This document shows, one piece after another, positions 6,009 through 60,615 of a stretch of 64,000 nt of DNA. Each line of letters starts with the position of its first letter. Within the stretch, counting starts at the first letter, position 1. This stretch comes from Pseudomonadota bacterium (GTDB lineage Bacteria; Pseudomonadota; Alphaproteobacteria; Rhodospirillales; Casp-alpha2): the NCBI GenBank assembly GCA_027624235.1, contig JAQBYB010000001.1, forward strand, positions 1 through 64,000. The letters run 5' to 3'. A program made the position numbers and the translations under genes. The notes below the pieces were generated by a model that was not told where the DNA came from, did not search any database, and worked only from the letters and a program-made list of their open reading frames with translations.

Positions 6009-7060
6009 CAGGGCGTCTCCTCATCTGGTGTTTGGTCCGTTTTCAGCAGGGATTCAAAAAAATCCAGATATTGGTTGATGACGATCTTTTCGGTGAAGTT
6101 CTTTTTGTAGGCTTGATGGCCCTGGCGGGCGATCCGTTGGCGGAGCTTGTCATCTTCAAAAAGGCTACGCAGCGCCTTACCCATGGTCGGCGCGTCGTCC
6201 ACCGGCACCAAGATTCCCGTTTCGCGGTTCTCAATCAGGGTGCCGGGACCGTAGCTGTCCGCCGCAATCACCGGCACGCCCTGGGCCCAGGCCTCAAGCA
6301 CGACATTGCCCAAGGGCTCATGGCGCGACGGACACACAAAAATGTCGGCGGCGGCCAGCAGCGCCGCCGTATCCTCACGCCAACCGAGAAACCGGGTCCG
6401 TGGCCTGACCCCAACGGCCTCCGCCAATTTCTCCAACTCTCCGCGCAACGGACCTTCACCGGCGATCCACAGATAGGCGTCGGGGATCCGGGCCATTGCC
6501 TCCAACAACACATCAAACGCCTTGTTTTCGTGCAACCGGCCGAGGGCGACCACCAGCGGCGCCCCTTCGGGGGTATAGAGTTCCCGGCGTGAGGCCGGCT
6601 CGGCCTTGTGGCTGGGAACAAAATTGGGCAGGTAATGGGCGCGGCCCGAAGGCCATCCATCGCCGATCAGGTAATCGCGAATATCTTCGGTGTTGCCGAT
6701 CAAATGATCGCAGCCTTGATAATACTTAAGGTCGTAATACCCCCCTAGCCGCCCGACATGGACAAAATCCCCTTTTGGGCACTGAGACGTGGCGCGGTTC
6801 ATCCAGGTCAGCACGACATCCGGGCGATAGGCCCGAATTTCCCGTTTCAGGGCGGCTTTGGTTTTAAAATCCAACATCCCGCCGAACGGCAATTCCACCG
6901 GCACGATGCCTTCGTCCCGAAGCACTTTCGCCCTGGCAGGGTGATTGCGGATGACGACGCGCTGATTGAGCCCGGCCCGATTGAGCGCCAGGACAAGGCG
7001 GATGAAAAACGCCTCGGCGCCACCGAATTCCGCCCCCGCCATCGCCTGAAGAACACGCAT
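6008..7060 (-). CDS. Glycosyltransferase, GT4-like (GT-B fold)
   Basis: The 350-residue protein starts MRVLQAMAGAEFGGAE, with the N-terminal Gly-rich GGAE typical of GT4 enzymes, and has the C-terminal donor-binding stretch CPSRHEPLGNVVLEAWAQG around residues 255-275, with the EX7E arrangement. It should transfer a nucleotide-activated sugar to a surface glycan on the cytoplasmic side of the inner membrane. The ATG at 7060 was chosen because it lies two bases after the stop of the upstream gene; a longer in-frame version would overlap that gene. The sugar and acceptor cannot be told. Confidence 0.85.
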   Translation of the reverse strand: MRVLQAMAGAEFGGAEAFFIRLVLALNRAGLNQRVVIRNHPARAKVLRDEGIVPVELPFGGMLDFKTKAALKREIRAYRPDVVLTWMNRATSQCPKGDFVHVGRLGGYYDLKYYQGCDHLIGNTEDIRDYLIGDGWPSGRAHYLPNFVPSHKAEPASRRELYTPEGAPLVVALGRLHENKAFDVLLEAMARIPDAYLWIAGEGPLRGELEKLAEAVGVRPRTRFLGWREDTAALLAAADIFVCPSRHEPLGNVVLEAWAQGVPVIAADSYGPGTLIENRETGILVPVDDAPTMGKALRSLFEDDKLRQRIARQGHQAYKKNFTEKIVINQYLDFFESLLKTDQTPDEETP

Positions 7061-7062
7061 GG

Positions 7063-8100
7063 TCAGGGGATCAGTCTTTCGAAGGCGGCGGCGGCTTGCG
7101 GCCAGCGCCAATTACGCTGCGTGTCCAACGACGCCAAATGCTGCGCCCGCCAAAGACCATTGTCGCTCAGCAACCGAACGGCGTTTTCGGCGAAGGCGGC
7201 GTCATCTGCGGCGACGAAGCCGGTCTCGCCGTCAATCACGCGTTCGGATACGGAGCCAAGATTCTCGACCACGGCGGGAACTCCCATAGCCTGGGCCTCG
7301 CCGACGGCCAGACAGAAGGTTTCATTGAGGTCGCCACGGTAAAGCATCACTCTGGCGGCGCGCAACTCCTCGATCAGGGCGGCCTTGGGCACCGGCCCCC
7401 GAAGCAGGACGCCGTCGCCCGTCATCCCGCGGGCACGCGTCAACACACGGTCCATGGCTTCGGCCTTCGCCTCGCCGACGCTGCCGTAGGTGGCGGCGCC
7501 GGCGAACACGTGCAGTTCGGCGCCGGGGACCTGGGGCCGGATGCGGTCCGCCCAAATATCCAGCAGCCAATCCAGGGACCGCAGCGGGTTCGACGTAAAA
7601 ACGGCGCGCGAGGGTGGCGGAGCGATCAATGGTTCGGCCCCGCAGAAGGCCTCGGGCAGCCCATAGGGAATGACCACCCGCTCGCCCGCGGGCGCCCAAC
7701 CGGGATAGGTGGTCGCATGATAATCACCGATAAAGATGATCGCTGGTTTGAGCCGCCACAGTTTTGTCAGATAGCGCCATTTCAGCAAATACCCCGCCGG
7801 GTTGTGGGTCCAGAACACGGTGCGCCGGGCCGCAGGCATCCGCCCCAATAGCTTGTCGCCCCGGTTGGCGATATACAGATCAGTGTTTTCGGGCCAGTCG
7901 TTATCGTCGATGCGCCGCCACGACACGTCTTTATGCACCAACGCGGCCTTGCACTTGTTCAGCACGATAGCCTCATGGCCGCGCGCCGCCAGTTCCTCCA
8001 TCAACGCCACTACCGAGGATTCGACACCGCCGAGCGGCCTTTCTTCAGGCGTGCGGCCATCGAATTCGATGCCGTCATCGGCAAGGACAATGCGCGCCAT
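7063..8100 (-). CDS. Glycosyltransferase, GT4-like (GT-B fold)
   Basis: A 345-residue protein with an N-terminal acceptor-binding half beginning MARIVLADDGIEFDGRTP and containing RPLGGVESSVVALMEEL, and a C-terminal half with LNETFCLAVGEAQAMGVPAV, the GT4/GT1-type donor site including the family EX7E-like spacing. It is the fourth of six genes in the minus-strand glycan cluster: it starts one base from the stop of the GT2 gene at 8101 and ends two bases before the next GT start. Substrates unknown. It is only distantly similar to the neighbouring GT4 enzyme. Confidence 0.82.
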   Translation of the reverse strand: MARIVLADDGIEFDGRTPEERPLGGVESSVVALMEELAARGHEAIVLNKCKAALVHKDVSWRRIDDNDWPENTDLYIANRGDKLLGRMPAARRTVFWTHNPAGYLLKWRYLTKLWRLKPAIIFIGDYHATTYPGWAPAGERVVIPYGLPEAFCGAEPLIAPPPSRAVFTSNPLRSLDWLLDIWADRIRPQVPGAELHVFAGAATYGSVGEAKAEAMDRVLTRARGMTGDGVLLRGPVPKAALIEELRAARVMLYRGDLNETFCLAVGEAQAMGVPAVVENLGSVSERVIDGETGFVAADDAAFAENAVRLLSDNGLWRAQHLASLDTQRNWRWPQAAAAFERLIP

Positions 8101-53751: not shown

Positions 53752-53844
53752 TATTTCGGCAAGGCCGCCAGAGGACTTCCCGCAGCCTAGTAAACTGCGT
53801 TACCCTCTTGAACCCGGTTCCGCCAGAATAAGATGGAGAACGCC

Positions 53845-54378
53845 ATGAGCGAAGAAATCCCCGAAGACAAAAATGCCGAAGCCGAAGAGTACTCGGAACA
53901 AGTGGAAGACGCCGGGGATGACCTCCGGGTCACCAAAGGCAGGCGCATCGCCCTGATCGCCGTCGCCTTGGTGGTGGTGGTGCTCGGCGCTAGTGGCGGG
54001 GCGTATTTCTTCGGCGTTTTTGACTCACTTCTCGGCATAAAAAGCAGTTCCAAGATCGCCTCCATCGACTTGGGCGTTCCCATCCGCCATGAACTGCCGA
54101 TGATTAAGGCCGACTTAAAAACCGGCGCCTGTCGATCCCCTCTGCTGAGGGTGGTGATGGTCGTTGAGATCGGCTCCAAGGACCTGCCGCGCCTGGAGGC
54201 CATGCAGCTTAGAATAAACGACGCGGTGGCGACCTATCTCCGTGATTTTGAACGCCAGGACATGGTCGGCAAGAAAGGATCGGACAGATTCCGTGCGGCC
54301 GCCGCCAACATCATCAACAACAAGATCGCGCCGGCCAGAATTGAGTCGCTTCTGTTCAAGGAATTTATCATTCAGTAG
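53845..54378 (+). CDS. fliL: Flagellar basal body-associated protein FliL
   Basis: A 177-residue protein: acidic cytoplasmic N-terminus, one membrane helix (ALIAVALVVVVLGASGGAYFFG, about 36-57), and a periplasmic stomatin-like domain with a typical FliL C-terminus (KIAPARIESLLFKEF). FliL surrounds the stator in the flagellar motor. The ATG at 53845 has a GGAG six bases before it. No other flagellar gene is near. The last 92 bp, from 54291, recur at 58335, and the BASS-type permease gene stops within them. Confidence 0.88.
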   Translation: MSEEIPEDKNAEAEEYSEQVEDAGDDLRVTKGRRIALIAVALVVVVLGASGGAYFFGVFDSLLGIKSSSKIASIDLGVPIRHELPMIKADLKTGACRSPLLRVVMVVEIGSKDLPRLEAMQLRINDAVATYLRDFERQDMVGKKGSDRFRAAAANIINNKIAPARIESLLFKEFIIQ

Positions 54379-54382
54379 GCGG
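54291..54382 (+). repeat. fliL 3'-end repeat, copy 1 (parent)
   Basis: From CCGTGCGGCC to TTCAGTAGGCGG this 92-bp stretch, the end of fliL plus seven bases past the stop, is matched by 58335-58426 with five substitutions (about 95% identity by hand alignment). Homology stops abruptly at both ends. The two copies are about 4.04 kb apart and in direct orientation. Confidence 0.85.
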
Positions 54383-55300
54383 TTGCAACCTTCCATAAAG
54401 TGGCTTCCACACCAGTGGAAAGAGGTAGATCGGAAACTGCGCCAAGGCAATATACAGAACAATGTCCGGGTGCAGCCCCGCCGGTAACACCGCCAGCAAT
54501 AGACCCATGTTGCGGTTGCCGGAAACAAACCCCAGGGTGAGGGCTTGAAAACGTCCCATCCAAGCAAAAATTTTTGACGTGATGAGCTGAAACAACGCAT
54601 AGGCGGCAAAGGCGATCACCAGAATTTTGAAAAAATGACCGGGCGCATCGATCAGTCTGGCGGTGACGCCGTCCATAATGGCCACGGCAAACACCAACAT
54701 CATCAACACCACCAATCCGTCAACAGACGCCGTAGCGGTCGCAAGCCGTGCCGGTGTCAACACCTTGCGGACAATAAACGCGGCGAGAAGAGCCGAGGTA
54801 ATGAGCCCCAGCAACCGGAGCGAAAGCGTTAAGGAGGAAATTTCCAGATCGAGGCCGAGCAACCCCAACGTCAACACCGGAAGAATGAAGGGACTCAAAA
54901 ACGTCGACGCGATCATCACCACAAGCGCAAACGCCCCATCCAGTCCAATGATCATCGCCAATGCCGGCGTCGACATCAACGGTGGCGCCGCCGCCATTAA
55001 AATCAGCGCCGAGGCAATCCCGGGTCCCATAACGCCCAGCACTTTGAAAAACGCCCACAAAACCACCGGAGACAGAACCAAAAGCCAGGCCACGGAAACG
55101 GCGGTAACATGAAGCCGTCTCACATGGCCGCCGATGGAGTCCCAGTCTGTCCGCAATAGGGCAAGAAACAATAGCCCCCAGACCGCCGGCGCCAACAACG
55201 GACGCATTTCCGACGCCAGCCCGGGCACCGCCAAAGCCAGAAAAATGCTGGCGGCAATGAACTTGGTCGCATGCTTGCCCAGGAACGCCAATAATTTCAT
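54368..55300 (-). CDS. BASS-type (bile acid:Na+ symporter-like) permease
   Basis: A 310-residue membrane protein with about ten hydrophobic helices. The LGFVSGNRNMGLLLAVL motif near residue 262 and the layout of short loops resemble BASS-family transporters of organic anions. It ends within the last 11 bases of fliL, so its final five residues and stop are encoded by the fliL repeat. It follows dctM by nine bases as the last gene of the TRAP operon, suggesting a shared or related organic-acid substrate. Confidence 0.78.
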   Translation of the reverse strand: MKLLAFLGKHATKFIAASIFLALAVPGLASEMRPLLAPAVWGLLFLALLRTDWDSIGGHVRRLHVTAVSVAWLLVLSPVVLWAFFKVLGVMGPGIASALILMAAAPPLMSTPALAMIIGLDGAFALVVMIASTFLSPFILPVLTLGLLGLDLEISSLTLSLRLLGLITSALLAAFIVRKVLTPARLATATASVDGLVVLMMLVFAVAIMDGVTARLIDAPGHFFKILVIAFAAYALFQLITSKIFAWMGRFQALTLGFVSGNRNMGLLLAVLPAGLHPDIVLYIALAQFPIYLFPLVWKPLYGRLQPPTE

Positions 55301-55309
55301 GGCTTCTAC

Positions 55310-56611
55310 TTATGACGCCATGCGGTCGGGAAGGTACGTCACGATTTCCGGGAAAACGACGATCAGGCCAACGGCCCCGAGAAGCAGAAAAAAGAACGGC
55401 ACAGCGGCGCGCGCGACTTCCAGGATATTGCGCCCCGTCAATCCCTGAAGGACGAACAGGTTAAAACCGACGGGCGGAGTGATTTGCGCCATTTCGACGA
55501 CGATGACCAGAAATATCCCGAACCAGATGCGGTCGATCCCGGCCTGTTCGATCATCGGCTGGATCACCGATGTCGTCAGCACGACAACGGAAATACCATC
55601 GAGAAAACATCCCAGCACGATAAAAAAGACCGTTAGCGCCAGCAACAATTGACTCGGCGTTAGCTGATACGTCCCGATCCATTCGGCAAGCAATCGGGGA
55701 ATGCCCGTGAACCCCATGGCGATGGTCAGGAACGCGGCGCCCGCCAGGATGAAGGCGATCATGCACGACGTTCGCATTGCCCCCATTAAGGCGGCCACGA
55801 AGGTTTCCCGGTCCAACGACCCGGACAACCAGGAGAACCCCAGGGACAGCACCACGCCGACCGAGGCGGCGTCCGTCGGCGATGCCCAACCGGCAAAAAT
55901 GGAGCCGATGATGCCGACGATCAGCAGGGTCACGGGGATCAGGCTCCGGGTCAACTTGATCCGCTCCCAGAGGGGAATGGGGGGATCCTTGGCCGGCATC
56001 CGGTGGCGGTTAAATAATGCCCAGACGGCGATATAGCCCATAAACATGCCGATCAGGACCAGGCCGGGGAAAATACCCGCCACGAACAACCGGGCGATCG
56101 ATTCCTCAATGGCGACACCGTAAACGATGAGGATGATCGACGGCGGGATCAAAAGCCCGAGCGTCCCCGAACCGGCAAGGGTGCCAATAATCATGTTTTC
56201 GTCGTACCCGCGCTTTTTCAATTCCGGGATCGCCATCTTGCCGATGGTCGCCGCCGTCGCTGCCGAGGATCCTGAAACGGCGGCAAAAATACCGCAGCCT
56301 AAAACATTGACATGCAACAGCCGCCCTGGAAGGCCGTTCATCCAGGGCGCCAGGCCGGTGAACATGTCTTCGGACAACCGGGATCGGAATAATATTTCAC
56401 CCATCCAGATAAATAGCGGCAAGGCGGCAAGGGCCCAGGAATTACTGGCGCCCCAGACGGTCGTCGCCAGCACCGAGCCGACCGGCGCATCGGTGAAGAA
56501 AACCATGCCGACCATGCCCGCCGCCAACAACGACAAGGCGACCCACAAGCCGCTGGCCAGCAAGGCAACCAACACAACGACCAGCAACGCCGTCAGATAG
56601 ATCGGCTCCAT
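55310..56611 (-). CDS. dctM: TRAP transporter large permease DctM
   Basis: A 433-residue membrane protein with about twelve helices, including the conserved GCGIFAAVSGSSAATAATIG region and LLIPPSIILIVYG. DctM is the Na+-driven transport subunit. It lies two bases after dctQ and nine before the BASS gene. Length and motifs are typical. Confidence 0.94.
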   Translation of the reverse strand: MEPIYLTALLVVVLVALLASGLWVALSLLAAGMVGMVFFTDAPVGSVLATTVWGASNSWALAALPLFIWMGEILFRSRLSEDMFTGLAPWMNGLPGRLLHVNVLGCGIFAAVSGSSAATAATIGKMAIPELKKRGYDENMIIGTLAGSGTLGLLIPPSIILIVYGVAIEESIARLFVAGIFPGLVLIGMFMGYIAVWALFNRHRMPAKDPPIPLWERIKLTRSLIPVTLLIVGIIGSIFAGWASPTDAASVGVVLSLGFSWLSGSLDRETFVAALMGAMRTSCMIAFILAGAAFLTIAMGFTGIPRLLAEWIGTYQLTPSQLLLALTVFFIVLGCFLDGISVVVLTTSVIQPMIEQAGIDRIWFGIFLVIVVEMAQITPPVGFNLFVLQGLTGRNILEVARAAVPFFFLLLGAVGLIVVFPEIVTYLPDRMAS

Positions 56612-56613
56612 GG

Positions 56614-57195
56614 CTAAGGGCTTTCCTTGTTCACGGGGGCGCTTAGCTCTCCTTCATCGCCTTTCGCATAATCCGGCAGGCGGCCTCTCAGCACGGTGAC
56701 GAATTCGTCGGCAAGGGCGATGGCCAAAACGATCAACCCGATCGCCATGGCCGATTGAGGTATCCATAACGACACCGGCACAATCCCCGCCGAAACGTCG
56801 TTGAACCTGTAGGAATCGATAACCATCCAAACCGCGTGCCAGGCAAAATAGGCGCTAAACGCCAGTCCGACCGCCGTGCACCACAATTCAGCCCAGCGCC
56901 TGGGGGCGGGGCCAAGCCCTTTGATTAGCAGCGATACCCGAATATGACTGCCGGCGCGAAGCGTGTTGGCCAACGCCAGAAACGAGGCCGCGACCAGGAA
57001 AAAACCGGTGAATTCAGCATAGGACGAAACCACCAGCCCGACCGGTTCGCCCAACACCGCCAAGGAGATCGTGTCGATGATATTGGCGCCGACCTGGGCA
57101 ATAACGATGGCGCAGATCGCCGCCAGGAAAAAAGCGGCGAGCCCTCCACTCAGTCGATACAGCGTGTCGAGCGCGCGGCGCACCATAATCCTCAA
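56614..57195 (-). CDS. dctQ: TRAP transporter small permease DctQ
   Basis: A 193-residue protein with four helices and the Arg/Trp positions (SHIRVSLLIKGL) typical of DctQ subunits, which pair with DctM. The long hydrophilic tail (about 25 residues) is acidic. It is separated from dctP by a 47-bp gap holding a strong hairpin. Confidence 0.9.
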   Translation of the reverse strand: MRIMVRRALDTLYRLSGGLAAFFLAAICAIVIAQVGANIIDTISLAVLGEPVGLVVSSYAEFTGFFLVAASFLALANTLRAGSHIRVSLLIKGLGPAPRRWAELWCTAVGLAFSAYFAWHAVWMVIDSYRFNDVSAGIVPVSLWIPQSAMAIGLIVLAIALADEFVTVLRGRLPDYAKGDEGELSAPVNKESP

Positions 57196-57199
57196 GGCA

Positions 57200-57228
57200 G
57201 GGCCAGCGCCAGTTTAAGACGCTGGCCC
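57200..57228 (-). promoter_or_regulatory. Intercistronic hairpin between dctP and dctQ
   Basis: A nine-bp perfect stem, GGGCCAGCG with CGCTGGCCC, around an 11-base loop. No T-run follows. It probably protects the dctP message so that more binding protein is made than permease; a similar element lies in the phn operon. Confidence 0.55.
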
Positions 57229-57242
57229 GTCCGAGATATCTA

Positions 57243-58226
57243 CTACTTGTAGGCTTTCAGCAGCATTTGGCCTTCGTCGCCGGCCTTCGCCGCCCATTCG
57301 GCGCTCATCGTCGCGCCGATTTTTTTCAGCGAGCCCATCAGGGCGGCGCTGGGGGTGACGATGGTCACGCCGTTTTTCTTGAGCTCGGCAATTTTCGAAT
57401 CGGTTTCCGCCTTGCTCATGTCCCAGCCGCGTTTCTCGGCTTTTGCGGCGGCGGCCAGAACGGCCTTTTGCGTCGCCGGGCTGAGTTTCGCGAGCGCCGC
57501 CTTGTTAATAACGACGACGTTTTTCGGAATCCATGCCTGGGTGTGATGAAAGTGGGACAGATAATCCCAGGCCTTACCGCTGACGCCCGTCGAGGGCGAC
57601 GTAATCATCGCCTCAATACGACCCGTCGCAAATGCCTGGGCCAAATCGGCGACCTCGATCTGGGTCGGCACCGCACCGGACAGTTCGGCCAAGCGGGTGG
57701 TCGAGGCGTTGTAAGCACGGAATTTAATGCCCTTCAGATCGCTGGCCTTATCGATCAGCTTCTTGGCGTACAAGCCCTGTGGCGGCCACGGCACCGAGAA
57801 CAAAACCATCAACCCCTGTTTATCCAACAGGGCATCGATCTTTGGCTTGGTTGCCGCCCACAATTTCGTCGCCTCACCGTAATTGCTGGCCAGGAACGGC
57901 AGCGTGTCCATGGCGAACACCGGGTCTTCGTTGGCCAACAGCCCCATGAAGAGCTCCCCGATGGGAACCTGGCCTGAACGGACGGCCTGCTTGATTTGCT
58001 TGTGCTTGAACAGCGACCCGGCGCTGTGAACCTTGATCGTCAGATCGCCGTTGGTCGCCGCTTTCACGTCTTCGGCGAATTTATTGATGTTGACGGTGTG
58101 GAACGTTGCATCCGGATAAGGCGTCGGCATATCCCACGACGCCGCGAACGCCGAACCGGCGCCGATCACCAATGCCAGCGCAGCGGCCAGACCGGCCCGC
58201 AGGCCATACTTAAATACTACCTTCAT
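57243..58226 (-). CDS. dctP: TRAP transporter substrate-binding protein DctP
   Basis: A 327-residue periplasmic protein with a signal peptide (about 1-28, ending GSAFA) and the DctP ligand-site arginine in LKGIKFRAYNASTTRLAEL near residue 168. The substrate is not evident; DctP proteins mostly bind carboxylates. It starts the operon dctP-dctQ-dctM-BASS. Confidence 0.93.
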   Translation of the reverse strand: MKVVFKYGLRAGLAAALALVIGAGSAFAASWDMPTPYPDATFHTVNINKFAEDVKAATNGDLTIKVHSAGSLFKHKQIKQAVRSGQVPIGELFMGLLANEDPVFAMDTLPFLASNYGEATKLWAATKPKIDALLDKQGLMVLFSVPWPPQGLYAKKLIDKASDLKGIKFRAYNASTTRLAELSGAVPTQIEVADLAQAFATGRIEAMITSPSTGVSGKAWDYLSHFHHTQAWIPKNVVVINKAALAKLSPATQKAVLAAAAKAEKRGWDMSKAETDSKIAELKKNGVTIVTPSAALMGSLKKIGATMSAEWAAKAGDEGQMLLKAYK

Positions 58227-58334
58227 AACTCAATCTCCCTGGTGGTCTCTCAACCTGTTAATTGATAACACCCATTTTATTTAGGGCGATTGATAAGGTA
58301 AGCCCGCACGGCAAGGCCTGGCAAGGCGGATAAA

Positions 58335-58426
58335 CCGTGCGGCCACCGCCAACATCATCAACACCATGATCGCGCCGGCCAGAATTCAGTCGCTTCGGTT
58401 CAAGGAATTTATCATTCAGTAGGCGG
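58335..58426 (+). repeat. fliL 3'-end repeat, copy 2
   Basis: The 92-bp partner of 54291-54382. It keeps an open reading frame to the same TAG, but all five substitutions change the amino acid (Ala to Thr, Asn to Thr, Lys to Met, Glu to Gln, Leu to Arg), as expected of an unconstrained piece. It lies 108 bp upstream of dctP on the other strand. The 58227-58613 gap contains this repeat, the short 11-bp array, the RAYT upstream repeats and the dctP promoter; no gene is seen. Confidence 0.85.
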
Positions 58427-58432
58427 CGGGCG

Positions 58433-58476
58433 GAAGTCGCCCTGATGTCGTCCTGATGTCGTCCTGATGTCGTCGG
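58433..58476 (+). repeat. Short 11-bp array (four units)
   Basis: GAAGTCGCCCT, GATGTCGTCCT, GATGTCGTCCT and GATGTCGTCGG follow each other without gap; the two middle ones are identical and the outer two differ at two positions. The core ATGTCGTCC resembles ATGNCNACC in the array near 43.5 kb, with the same 11-bp period. Confidence 0.75.
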
Positions 58477-58613
58477 TTTTGGCCGCCTTTTTCGACCTAA
58501 CATGTTGATCTAAAACAATTTAGGGCCGATGTGATCAATTGGGGGACAGGATCAATTGGGGGACAGTATACTTATTTCTTCCCCCGATATCGGACTCCCG
58601 TTAGTGTATCCCC

Positions 58614-59315
58614 ATGGCAAGAATAGCCCGCGTCGTCGTTCCCGGCATCGCCCATCACGTCACCCAACGGGGCAACCGGCGGATGGAAACCTTTTTCAGC
58701 GCCGATGATTGCAGGCTCTACCGCGATCTGCTGGCCGACCATTGCGCCCAGGCGGGGGTCTCGGTGTGGGCCTATTGCCTGATGCCCAACCACGTGCACC
58801 TGATCATGGTTCCCGCCCACGAGGACGGCCTGCGCCAGGCGCTCGGCGAAACCCATCGCCGCTACACCCGCCAAATCAATTTCCGCGAAGGCTGGCGCGG
58901 GCATCTTTGGCAGGAGCGGTTTCACTCATTCCCCATGGACGAAAACCATTTGGCGACGGCGGTCCGCTACGTCGAACTGAACCCGGTCCGCGCCCGGCTG
59001 GCCGAGGCCGCCGCCGATTGGCCCTGGTCCAGCGCCCGCGCCCATGTCGAGGGCCGCGACGATGGCCTCGTTCTAACCGCGCCGATGCTGGAACGGTTCG
59101 GCGACTGGCTGGCGTTCCTGGGTCAGGAGTCCAGCGAACCGGAATTGGTATCCCTGCGCCAGCACCAGCGCACCGGTCGGCCATGGGGCGGCGCGGACTT
59201 CGTCGAACGGCTGGAGACGACGCTTGGCCGTCGGCTTAAACCAGGCCGGGCAGGACGCAAGCCGAAACGCCGGGAGGGAGAGGGGAAATTAGGATTAATT
59301 GGGGGACAGGATTAA
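58614..59315 (+). CDS. REP-associated tyrosine transposase (RAYT, IS200-like)
   Basis: A 233-residue Y1 transposase with HVTQRGNRRMETFF, the histidine motif MPNHVHLIM near residue 60 and the catalytic Tyr in HRRYTRQIN near residue 87, then the family block VRYVELNPVRARL. The last 25 residues are basic. RAYTs act on the REP hairpins beside their genes. The frame is intact, so it may be active. No ribosome site is clear before the ATG. Confidence 0.9.
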   Translation: MARIARVVVPGIAHHVTQRGNRRMETFFSADDCRLYRDLLADHCAQAGVSVWAYCLMPNHVHLIMVPAHEDGLRQALGETHRRYTRQINFREGWRGHLWQERFHSFPMDENHLATAVRYVELNPVRARLAEAAADWPWSSARAHVEGRDDGLVLTAPMLERFGDWLAFLGQESSEPELVSLRQHQRTGRPWGGADFVERLETTLGRRLKPGRAGRKPKRREGEGKLGLIGGQD

Positions 59316-59371
59316 TTTGGGGACAGTATACTTATTTTAAGTTTAACATACTGATTTAATTATATTTTTTG

Positions 59372-59470
59372 TTAAATAAGTATACTGTCCCCCAATTAAC
59401 ATCCTTAAATAAGTATACTGTCCCCCAATTAACATCCTTAAATAAGTATACTGTCCCCCAATTAACATCC
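59372..59470 (+). repeat. Three tandem 33-bp repeats
   Basis: Identical units of 33 bp (TTAAATAAGTATACTG followed by TCCCCCAATTAACATCC) occupy 59372-59404, 59405-59437 and 59438-59470. Each contains the palindrome AGTATACT. The first unit forms a 19-bp perfect inverted repeat with 59319-59337. They lie just past the prfB stop, within its probable 3' transcript. Confidence 0.92.
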
Positions 59471-59504: not shown

Positions 59505-60615
59505 CTACCCCCCATCCTTCTTCACCCGCGCCGCCAGCGCGGCGGCCATGAAATCGTCGAGGTCGCCGTCCATGACGGCCTGGACGTTGGAGGTCTCGAC
59601 ATTGGTGCGGGTGTCCTTGACCAACTGATAGGGCTGCATGACGTAGGACCGGATCTGGTGGCCCCAGCCGATGTCGGTCTTCTCGCCGCGTTCGGATTCC
59701 GCCTTGGCCTCGCGGTCGCTCAGTTCCTTCTCATACAGCCGCGCTTTCAGCATATTCATGGCGGTGGCGCGGTTTTTATGCTGCGACCGGCTGCTTTGGC
59801 ATTGCACGACGATGTTTGTCGGCAGGTGGGTCAGGCGGATGGCGCTGTCGGTTTTGTTGACGTGCTGGCCGCCGGCGCCGGACGCGCGGTAGGTATCGAC
59901 GCGCAGGTCCTTGTCATCGATGGCGATGTCGATTTCATCATCGATGGCCGGATAAATCCAGGCCGACGCGAATGACGTGTGGCGGCGCGACGACGAGTCA
60001 TAGGGCGATATCCGCACCAGCCGGTGAACGCCGCTTTCGGTCTTCATCCAGCCATAGGCGTTATGTCCGGCGATTCTAATGGTCGCTGATTTCAACCCGG
60101 CTTCTTCCCCGGCGCTGGCTTCCAGCCATTCGACCGTGTGGCCATGGGCCTCGGCCCAGCGCGTATACATGCGCAGAAGCATTTCCGCCCAGTCCTGGGC
60201 CTCGGTGCCGCCGGCGCCGGCATGGATTTCCAGATAACAATCGTTGGCGTCGGCCTCACCGGACAGCAGGGTCTGCAATTCCGCCTTGGCGGCGCGCGCC
60301 TGAACGTCCCTGAGCGCCGTTTCCGCCTCTTCGGCGACCGCTTGGTCGGCTTCGGCCTCGGCCAGTTCCAGCAGTTCCAGATTATCGGCGAGGCCGCTTT
60401 GCAGCCCATGAATTTCGGCAAGGCTCGATTCCAGCCGCGTCCGCTCGCGCATCATTGCTTGCGCTTTTTCGGCGTTGTTCCAGAAACCGGCGGCTTCGCT
60501 GAGGGCGTTTAGTTCGTCGAGACGGCTTTGGGCGCTGTCATAGTCAAAGATGCCTCCTCAGCAGTTCCAGAGACTGCTTGATTTCGGAAGCCATTGTTTC
60601 GATTTCCGCGCGCAT
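59505..60615 (-). CDS. prfB: Peptide chain release factor 2, programmed +1 frameshift
   Basis: RF2 releases peptides at UGA and UAA. The first part runs from ATG at 60615 for 23 codons to an in-frame TGA at 60546-60544; reading continues after a +1 shift at GAC (60545) to the TAG at 59505, giving 369 residues, close to E. coli's 365. The GGQ catalytic motif is in [12 protein letters not shown]. The stop-recognition tripeptide reads SPY, in [14 protein letters not shown], where E. coli has SPF. The stop lies 34 bp from the 33-bp repeats. Confidence 0.94.
60543..60558 (-). promoter_or_regulatory. prfB +1 programmed frameshift site
   Basis: The minus strand reads AGGAGG CAT CTT TGA C: an internal Shine-Dalgarno-like hexamer three bases before the slippery CTT, then the UGA stop followed by C. 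This is the classical autoregulatory site at which low RF2 level favours the frameshift and more RF2 is made. Confidence 0.93.

Follow-up and report, generated by a model that had tools for sequence, protein, structure and literature searches.

How does a complete transporter operon come to lie between two copies of the 3′ end of one and the same gene? This is the question raised by a locus in an alphaproteobacterial genome (3.03 Mb in 159 contigs, 94.7% complete), and the first part of the answer, that this is a small insertion and that the gene end is duplicated around it, is well supported. The second part, which concerns the manner of its arrival, has to be argued from several sides, and here we hold our favoured reading with some reserve.

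What lies between fliL and prfB?

The window, by which we mean the whole stretch of 64,000 nucleotides that was analysed, belongs to a 96-kb contig. Along it one meets glnE, bcp, a gene that we take to be of DUF455 type and a fliL-like gene (+), followed by BASS-like, dctM, dctQ and dctP genes (-), a gene for a REP-associated tyrosine transposase, or RAYT (+), and then prfB and a minus-strand gene beyond it that is presumably mrcA (-). The fliL-like gene (53833-54378, plus strand; fliL from here on) is intact and encodes 181 amino acids; its product matches PF03748 above the cut-off (E 9e-8), and the NCBIfam FliL models score below their own cut-offs. Convergent to it is prfB (59505-60455, minus strand; TIGR00020 above cut-off). 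Among the best 80 named prfB loci, the RF2 proteins come from Rhodospirillales and other Alphaproteobacteria, with a best identity of 71%. The prfB gene also has a CTTTGAC downstream of an AGGAGG (minus strand, window 60455-60600), which we take to be the frameshift site usual for release factor 2. A promoter and terminator scan returned 3 promoter-like sites where 2.5 were expected and 15 terminator-like sites where 7.0 were expected, and Rfam over the window stretch gave three weak matches only, all below the gathering score and taken as chance.

The end of fliL (copy 1, 54291-54382, plus strand, found by self-comparison) recurs in the spacer before prfB (copy 2, 58335-58426, plus strand), and what a preliminary description had said of the DNA in between holds: it contains only a four-gene transporter operon, antisense to fliL. 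All four genes are on the minus strand, namely the BASS-like gene (54368-55300, assigned through its homologues), dctM for the TRAP large permease (55310-56611; PF06808, E 1e-84; TIGR00786 above cut-off), dctQ for the small permease (56614-57195; PF04290, E 2e-18) and dctP for the solute-binding protein (57243-58226; PF03480, E 1e-33). With DctP, DctQ and DctM all above their cut-offs, the TRAP subunit set is complete.

How alike are the two copies?

The repeat was first described as lying about 4.04 kb away, in the same orientation and with five differences, and it was recovered as just that: 92 bp, a spacing of 4,044 bp and 87 of 92 bases identical (self-BLAST E 2e-34). Beyond these two copies, the genome offers nothing closer to the 92-mer than a 32-bp match (E 0.003). 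The total length given earlier was right and its division into 85 bp of fliL plus seven bases was wrong, the stop codon having been counted in the seven; copy 1 is made up of the final 88 bp of fliL, stop codon included, plus 4 bp. Target duplication by an ordinary transposon was set aside, 92 bp being far above the usual lengths of such duplications.

At the repeat's edge, identity against the genome's own fliL drops abruptly from 95% to background. The upstream flanks of the two copies do not align above shuffled sequence (214 of 1,000 shuffles do as well), nor is there an alignment between the downstream flanks. This bears on whether the arrangement might be a mis-assembly of a metagenome-derived contig. 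The genome is indeed in 159 pieces, and several contig ends are near repeats, yet copy 2 has an upstream sequence of its own, unlike the fliL flank, and is well inside the 96-kb contig, so that we regard an assembly artefact as the least probable of the explanations weighed here. The same flanks speak to the idea that copy 2 is the remnant of a second, full fliL gene, the operon having landed between tandem copies. A weak likeness between the upstream flank of copy 2 and the fliL flank of a congener (G003; 10 of 1,000 shuffles as good) would agree with it, but that flank is unlike the genome's own fliL, the fall in identity at the edge is sudden, and none of the loci of 29 relatives has a second fliL end; we give this reading a very slim chance.

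The five differences between the copies fall at repeat positions 11, 30, 33, 53 and 63. Each of them alters a FliL residue, which is unremarkable, given that random changes in the same codons do so at 77% (P about 0.27). Judged by eye against four relatives (G003, G005, G007 and G020), the derived base seems to be in copy 1 at 54323 and 54343 (positions 33 and 53) and in copy 2 at 58364 and 58397 (positions 30 and 63), position 11 (54301/58345) not being polarised; G007 departs from this by sharing the copy-1 base at 54343 and having a third base at 58397. With apparently derived bases in each copy, the distal one does not account for all five differences. What survives of the earlier claim, that all five had altered residues in the distal copy as in a fragment without function, is thus the alteration of residues and not its placement. 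Either both copies would have changed since the duplication or the two may be of different source.

One rival is a Campbell-type explanation, in which a circular DNA entered by a single homologous crossover through a short piece of fliL end that it had from a close relative. The outcome would be the layout seen here, five differences might suit two alleles, and both copies look changed. However, all five differences change the protein (a result with P about 0.27 if changes were random), where functional alleles should mostly differ silently, and 92 bp is little homology for single-crossover recombination. We consider this route improbable.

Was the site once empty, and which copy is the original?

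A comparison of relatives had been proposed for finding an empty site, and it did find one. Among the fliL loci of the 29 best relatives, all of other species than that of the window, 12 have convergent fliL and prfB genes about 50 bp apart or less; prfB lies 150-1,400 bp from fliL in six more, and 11 have no prfB within the short locus. None of the 29 has a second fliL end at a threshold of E 0.001, many of these loci having only 1.5 kb of flank. Eighteen of them could be followed in longer stretches, where fliL and prfB are adjacent in seven, separated by 1-2.6 kb in eight (one with prfB inverted) and without prfB in three; no second fliL end appeared there either, and the extra matches to the fliL end were at most 33 bp long, with the limit that a distant second copy could be missed where a stretch ends soon after fliL. 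A FliL reading frame occurs in two of the best 80 named prfB loci, neither with a second fliL end, and one of these is probably the G016 locus (L139). The closest relative by prfB (G004, 89%) is of no use as a test of the empty site because there is no such fliL in its assembly. Searching the genome contigs with the FliL protein brought up no relative, and the fliL end had no match among plasmids. Separately, another genus of the family likewise has a RAYT-type gene in its fliL-prfB interval (L065 of G018, 6193-8027).

If the site was empty, which of the two copies was there first? In G003, fliL runs straight into an array whose 11-bp units are of TCGTC type. In the window, an array of 11-bp units (GTCGTCNNNNN), part of a truncated dispersed repeat (58433-58520, plus strand), adjoins copy 2, not copy 1. 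Further on, beside prfB, the window has a hairpin arm and three 33-bp tandem units (59312-59470); a hairpin akin to this one (73% over 82 bp) also adjoins prfB of G003, which is on a separate contig. The stretch to the right of copy 2 aligns weakly with the one downstream of fliL in G003 (42 of 500 shuffles reach its score) and members of the array family also occur at other places, so the argument from context rests on architecture and position. Because what follows copy 2 resembles what follows the congener's fliL, copy 2 looks like the older gene end; on the repeat and its context, then, it is probably the displaced original 3′ end of fliL, and the newly arrived DNA would be the 4,044 bp on its left-hand side.

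The three tandem units (59372-59470) are identical to one another, and each has a REP-like GTATACTGTCCCC. Between them and the truncated repeat is the RAYT gene (58614-59315, plus strand), set between two 45-bp direct repeats (whole feature 58533-59337); its product scores 80.2 bits with NF047646, for which the cut-off is 80, and matches PF01797. We tried the transposase as the mover of the operon and rejected it: the gene is outside the fliL repeats and apparently interrupts the dispersed repeat, which makes it look like a later neighbour.

The dispersed repeat itself is a non-coding family in which the 11-bp units are followed by a spacer of about 80 nt and then by GTCGTCATTTGTCGTCAT, after which many copies have a promoter-like stretch and a GAAC-N7-GAAC motif that we take to resemble the alphaproteobacterial LexA box. 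Members are found, besides the window, in the same genome (G000) on contigs C60, C11, C106, C115, C50 (two), C77, C13 and C21, as well as at loci L239-L262. The exact core of the family has 24 matches in six of ten genomes of the genus, 10 of them in G000, and several copies adjoin the 5′ ends of genes, among them polA, secA, guaB and the tmRNA gene (identified by eye except for the last). Over six loci, comprising own-genome arrays and the fliL locus of G003, only tmRNA models reached the Rfam gathering score, and none did so in the arrays.

Where did the operon come from?

The operon would be expected to import an organic acid or a similar solute. Its least familiar member is the BASS-like gene, whose product has about the normal length for its homologues and no Pfam or NCBIfam match of its own; of four homologues scanned, two match PF01758 (L073 and L076) and two do not (L072 and L074). 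The stop codon and last four codons of this gene are inside copy 1, so the junction is at or in its final codons.

Over 2.9 kb, the dctPQM DNA is 85.5% identical to that of another congener (G006), whereas secA of the same two genomes is 77% identical. TRAP genes this much closer than secA suggest that the dctPQM-BASS operon was probably acquired horizontally. The distribution of its parts is patchy: a close DctP (over 90% identity) occurs in two of the ten genus genomes, the window's own included, and homologues at E 1e-60 or better in the same number of genus genomes and in 81 of 317 genomes of the order; for the BASS-like protein, the nine congeners yield no homologue at E 0.001 (one genome of ten, that is, has the gene). 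Unlike those of the window, the TRAP genes of G006 adjoin other genes, and there is no BASS match on their contig, of which about 0.7 kb remains beyond dctM.

Was the combination put together at this site? A BASS-like gene lies behind dctM in 2 of 15 TRAP loci of other genomes, some of them cut by contig ends. It follows dctPQM within about 40 bp in G080 (L119; its BASS-like protein reaches only E 0.001 with TIGR00841, far below the cut-off) and at about 0.4 kb in G180 (L128). Both stretches differ from the window in having no fliL match. Given these two cases, the four genes fit a pre-existing operon type. The low share of such loci is a point against the integration reading discussed below.

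Does the genome contain similar duplications?

We scanned 1,176,446 bases of the genome (39%) for non-tandem direct repeats of at least 40 bp and 80% identity, spaced 300-30,000 apart; the stretches were not random, ten of them having been picked for copies of the dispersed repeat, and one of those ten holds the thiC case below. Twelve repeat pairs were returned: three duplications of gene 3′ ends around inserts, one of a gene 5′ end, one RAYT flank and one paralogous pair (L318), the other six (three on C123, then C159, C145 and L315) being paralogous or dispersed by eye.

The textbook-like example is a tRNA-Glu gene (L301 on G000:C37, 7544-7591 and 12385-12460), whose last 45 bp are duplicated 4.84 kb away with 100% identity. 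The DNA so enclosed carries an ABC-transporter operon, also a hemerythrin gene, and no recombinase; this is the classic integrase signature, and it parallels fliL in being a transporter operon without an integrase. In the thiC case (L235 on G000:C13, 8411-9327), a 203-bp segment is duplicated at 88.7% identity around a 468-bp insert that contains an 11-bp-repeat array. The insert starts inside the gene, and the intact thiC takes its last residues from it (the family model ends at 576 of 634). In the far copy a cysteine of the CxxCxxxxC motif is gone, and a frameshift leads on to a separate stop codon, as one would expect of a displaced, decaying original end. The fourth case departs from the rule: on G000:C16 (38409-38474 and 49074-49139) a 67-bp piece with the 5′ end of a gene of SDR type (by eye) is duplicated 10.7 kb apart, which means that gene pieces are also duplicated in another way in this genome and weakens the 3′-end pattern.

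How might the operon have arrived?

We lean, at a little short of an even chance, towards site-specific recombination as the process that integrated the dctPQM-BASS operon at the 3′ end of fliL; the enzyme would have acted in trans or have disappeared afterwards. The sequence of events would be as follows. Incoming DNA carrying the operon would have joined the fliL end in the spacer between the convergent fliL and prfB and supplied a copy of that end (now copy 1), so that fliL stayed intact; the original end would have been displaced by 4 kb and would now stand, as copy 2, in front of the operon. Comparison with relatives supports the insertion, the intact gene and a probable foreign origin and, more weakly, copy 2 as the old end. 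An unbroken gene, a copy of its 3′ end on either side of the insert and an empty site in relatives are what an integrative element leaves.

The layout is of a known kind at an unusual address. Phage 21 makes the same kind of arrangement at the 3′ end of icd in E. coli. The closest parallel that we can cite is e14, which supplies the 3′ end of icd and leaves a 163-bp duplicate of the original end (PMC6379469), just as the element at fliL would provide the gene end and leave the old one behind. The likeness has its limits, e14 being a 15-kb cryptic prophage that moves by site-specific recombination, in contrast to 4 kb with four transporter genes and no recombinase. Islands and islets at tRNA ends likewise have an intact gene at one end and a duplicated 3′ piece at the other, but they target tRNA genes, whereas fliL encodes a protein and its repeat is 92 bp long. 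Within the literature searched, no paper came up on fliL as a place where genomic islands integrate, or on TRAP transporters paired with a bile acid:sodium symporter.

What speaks for another process? As had been noted at the outset, none of the four genes in the cassette encodes a recombinase, and no phage-type enzyme was found in the assembly: its one Phage_integrase match fits a XerC model best, though below that model's cut-off, and its three Resolvase matches are on other contigs. This is what one would see had no recombinase ever been involved, the operon fragment having been pasted into the fliL-prfB spacer by illegitimate capture, during repair of a staggered break or template switching, with 92 bp of the target copied on both sides. 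The edge of the cassette at the last BASS-like codons is such as a random breakpoint could give. The interval also turns over fast in the genus (gene types by eye): in G003 the sequence after fliL is different and prfB is on a separate contig, prfB of G004 is followed by other genes, and G008 has no fliL between glnE and prfB. Neither the thiC duplication nor that of the 5′ end on C16 looks like a site-specific target. Against capture stand the integrase signature of the tRNA-Glu case and the target itself, with fliL intact and its end exactly restored. Because the duplicated 5′ end falls outside the 3′-end rule, we keep break-repair capture close behind integration, as a serious possibility at roughly one chance in three.

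The reading proposed in the preliminary description, integration at a gene 3′ end, therefore comes through in part. It gains from the empty site, the probably foreign cargo, the context of copy 2 and the tRNA-Glu parallel; it loses by the missing recombinase, by the duplicated 5′ end elsewhere and by a lack of recurrence, in that the suggested search for cargo at the fliL 3′ end found none in the loci of 29 relatives or in one further locus (neither of the two FliL loci among the best 80 prfB loci shows reuse of the site). A broader idea is that this lineage harbours several recombinase-free islets bounded by 3′ pieces of their target genes (fliL with TRAP-BASS, tRNA-Glu with ABC, thiC with the 11-bp array), all moved in trans by one enzyme that spreads transporter operons; we find it rather doubtful.

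Why does it matter?

With the layout found again at a tRNA gene and, somewhat altered, at thiC, one may ask which enzyme or repair process makes duplications of 45-203 bp in this genome. Integration at the 3′ end of fliL, if confirmed, would add a further protein gene to the targets of such elements, and it would mean that bare transporter operons can travel as integrase-free islets.
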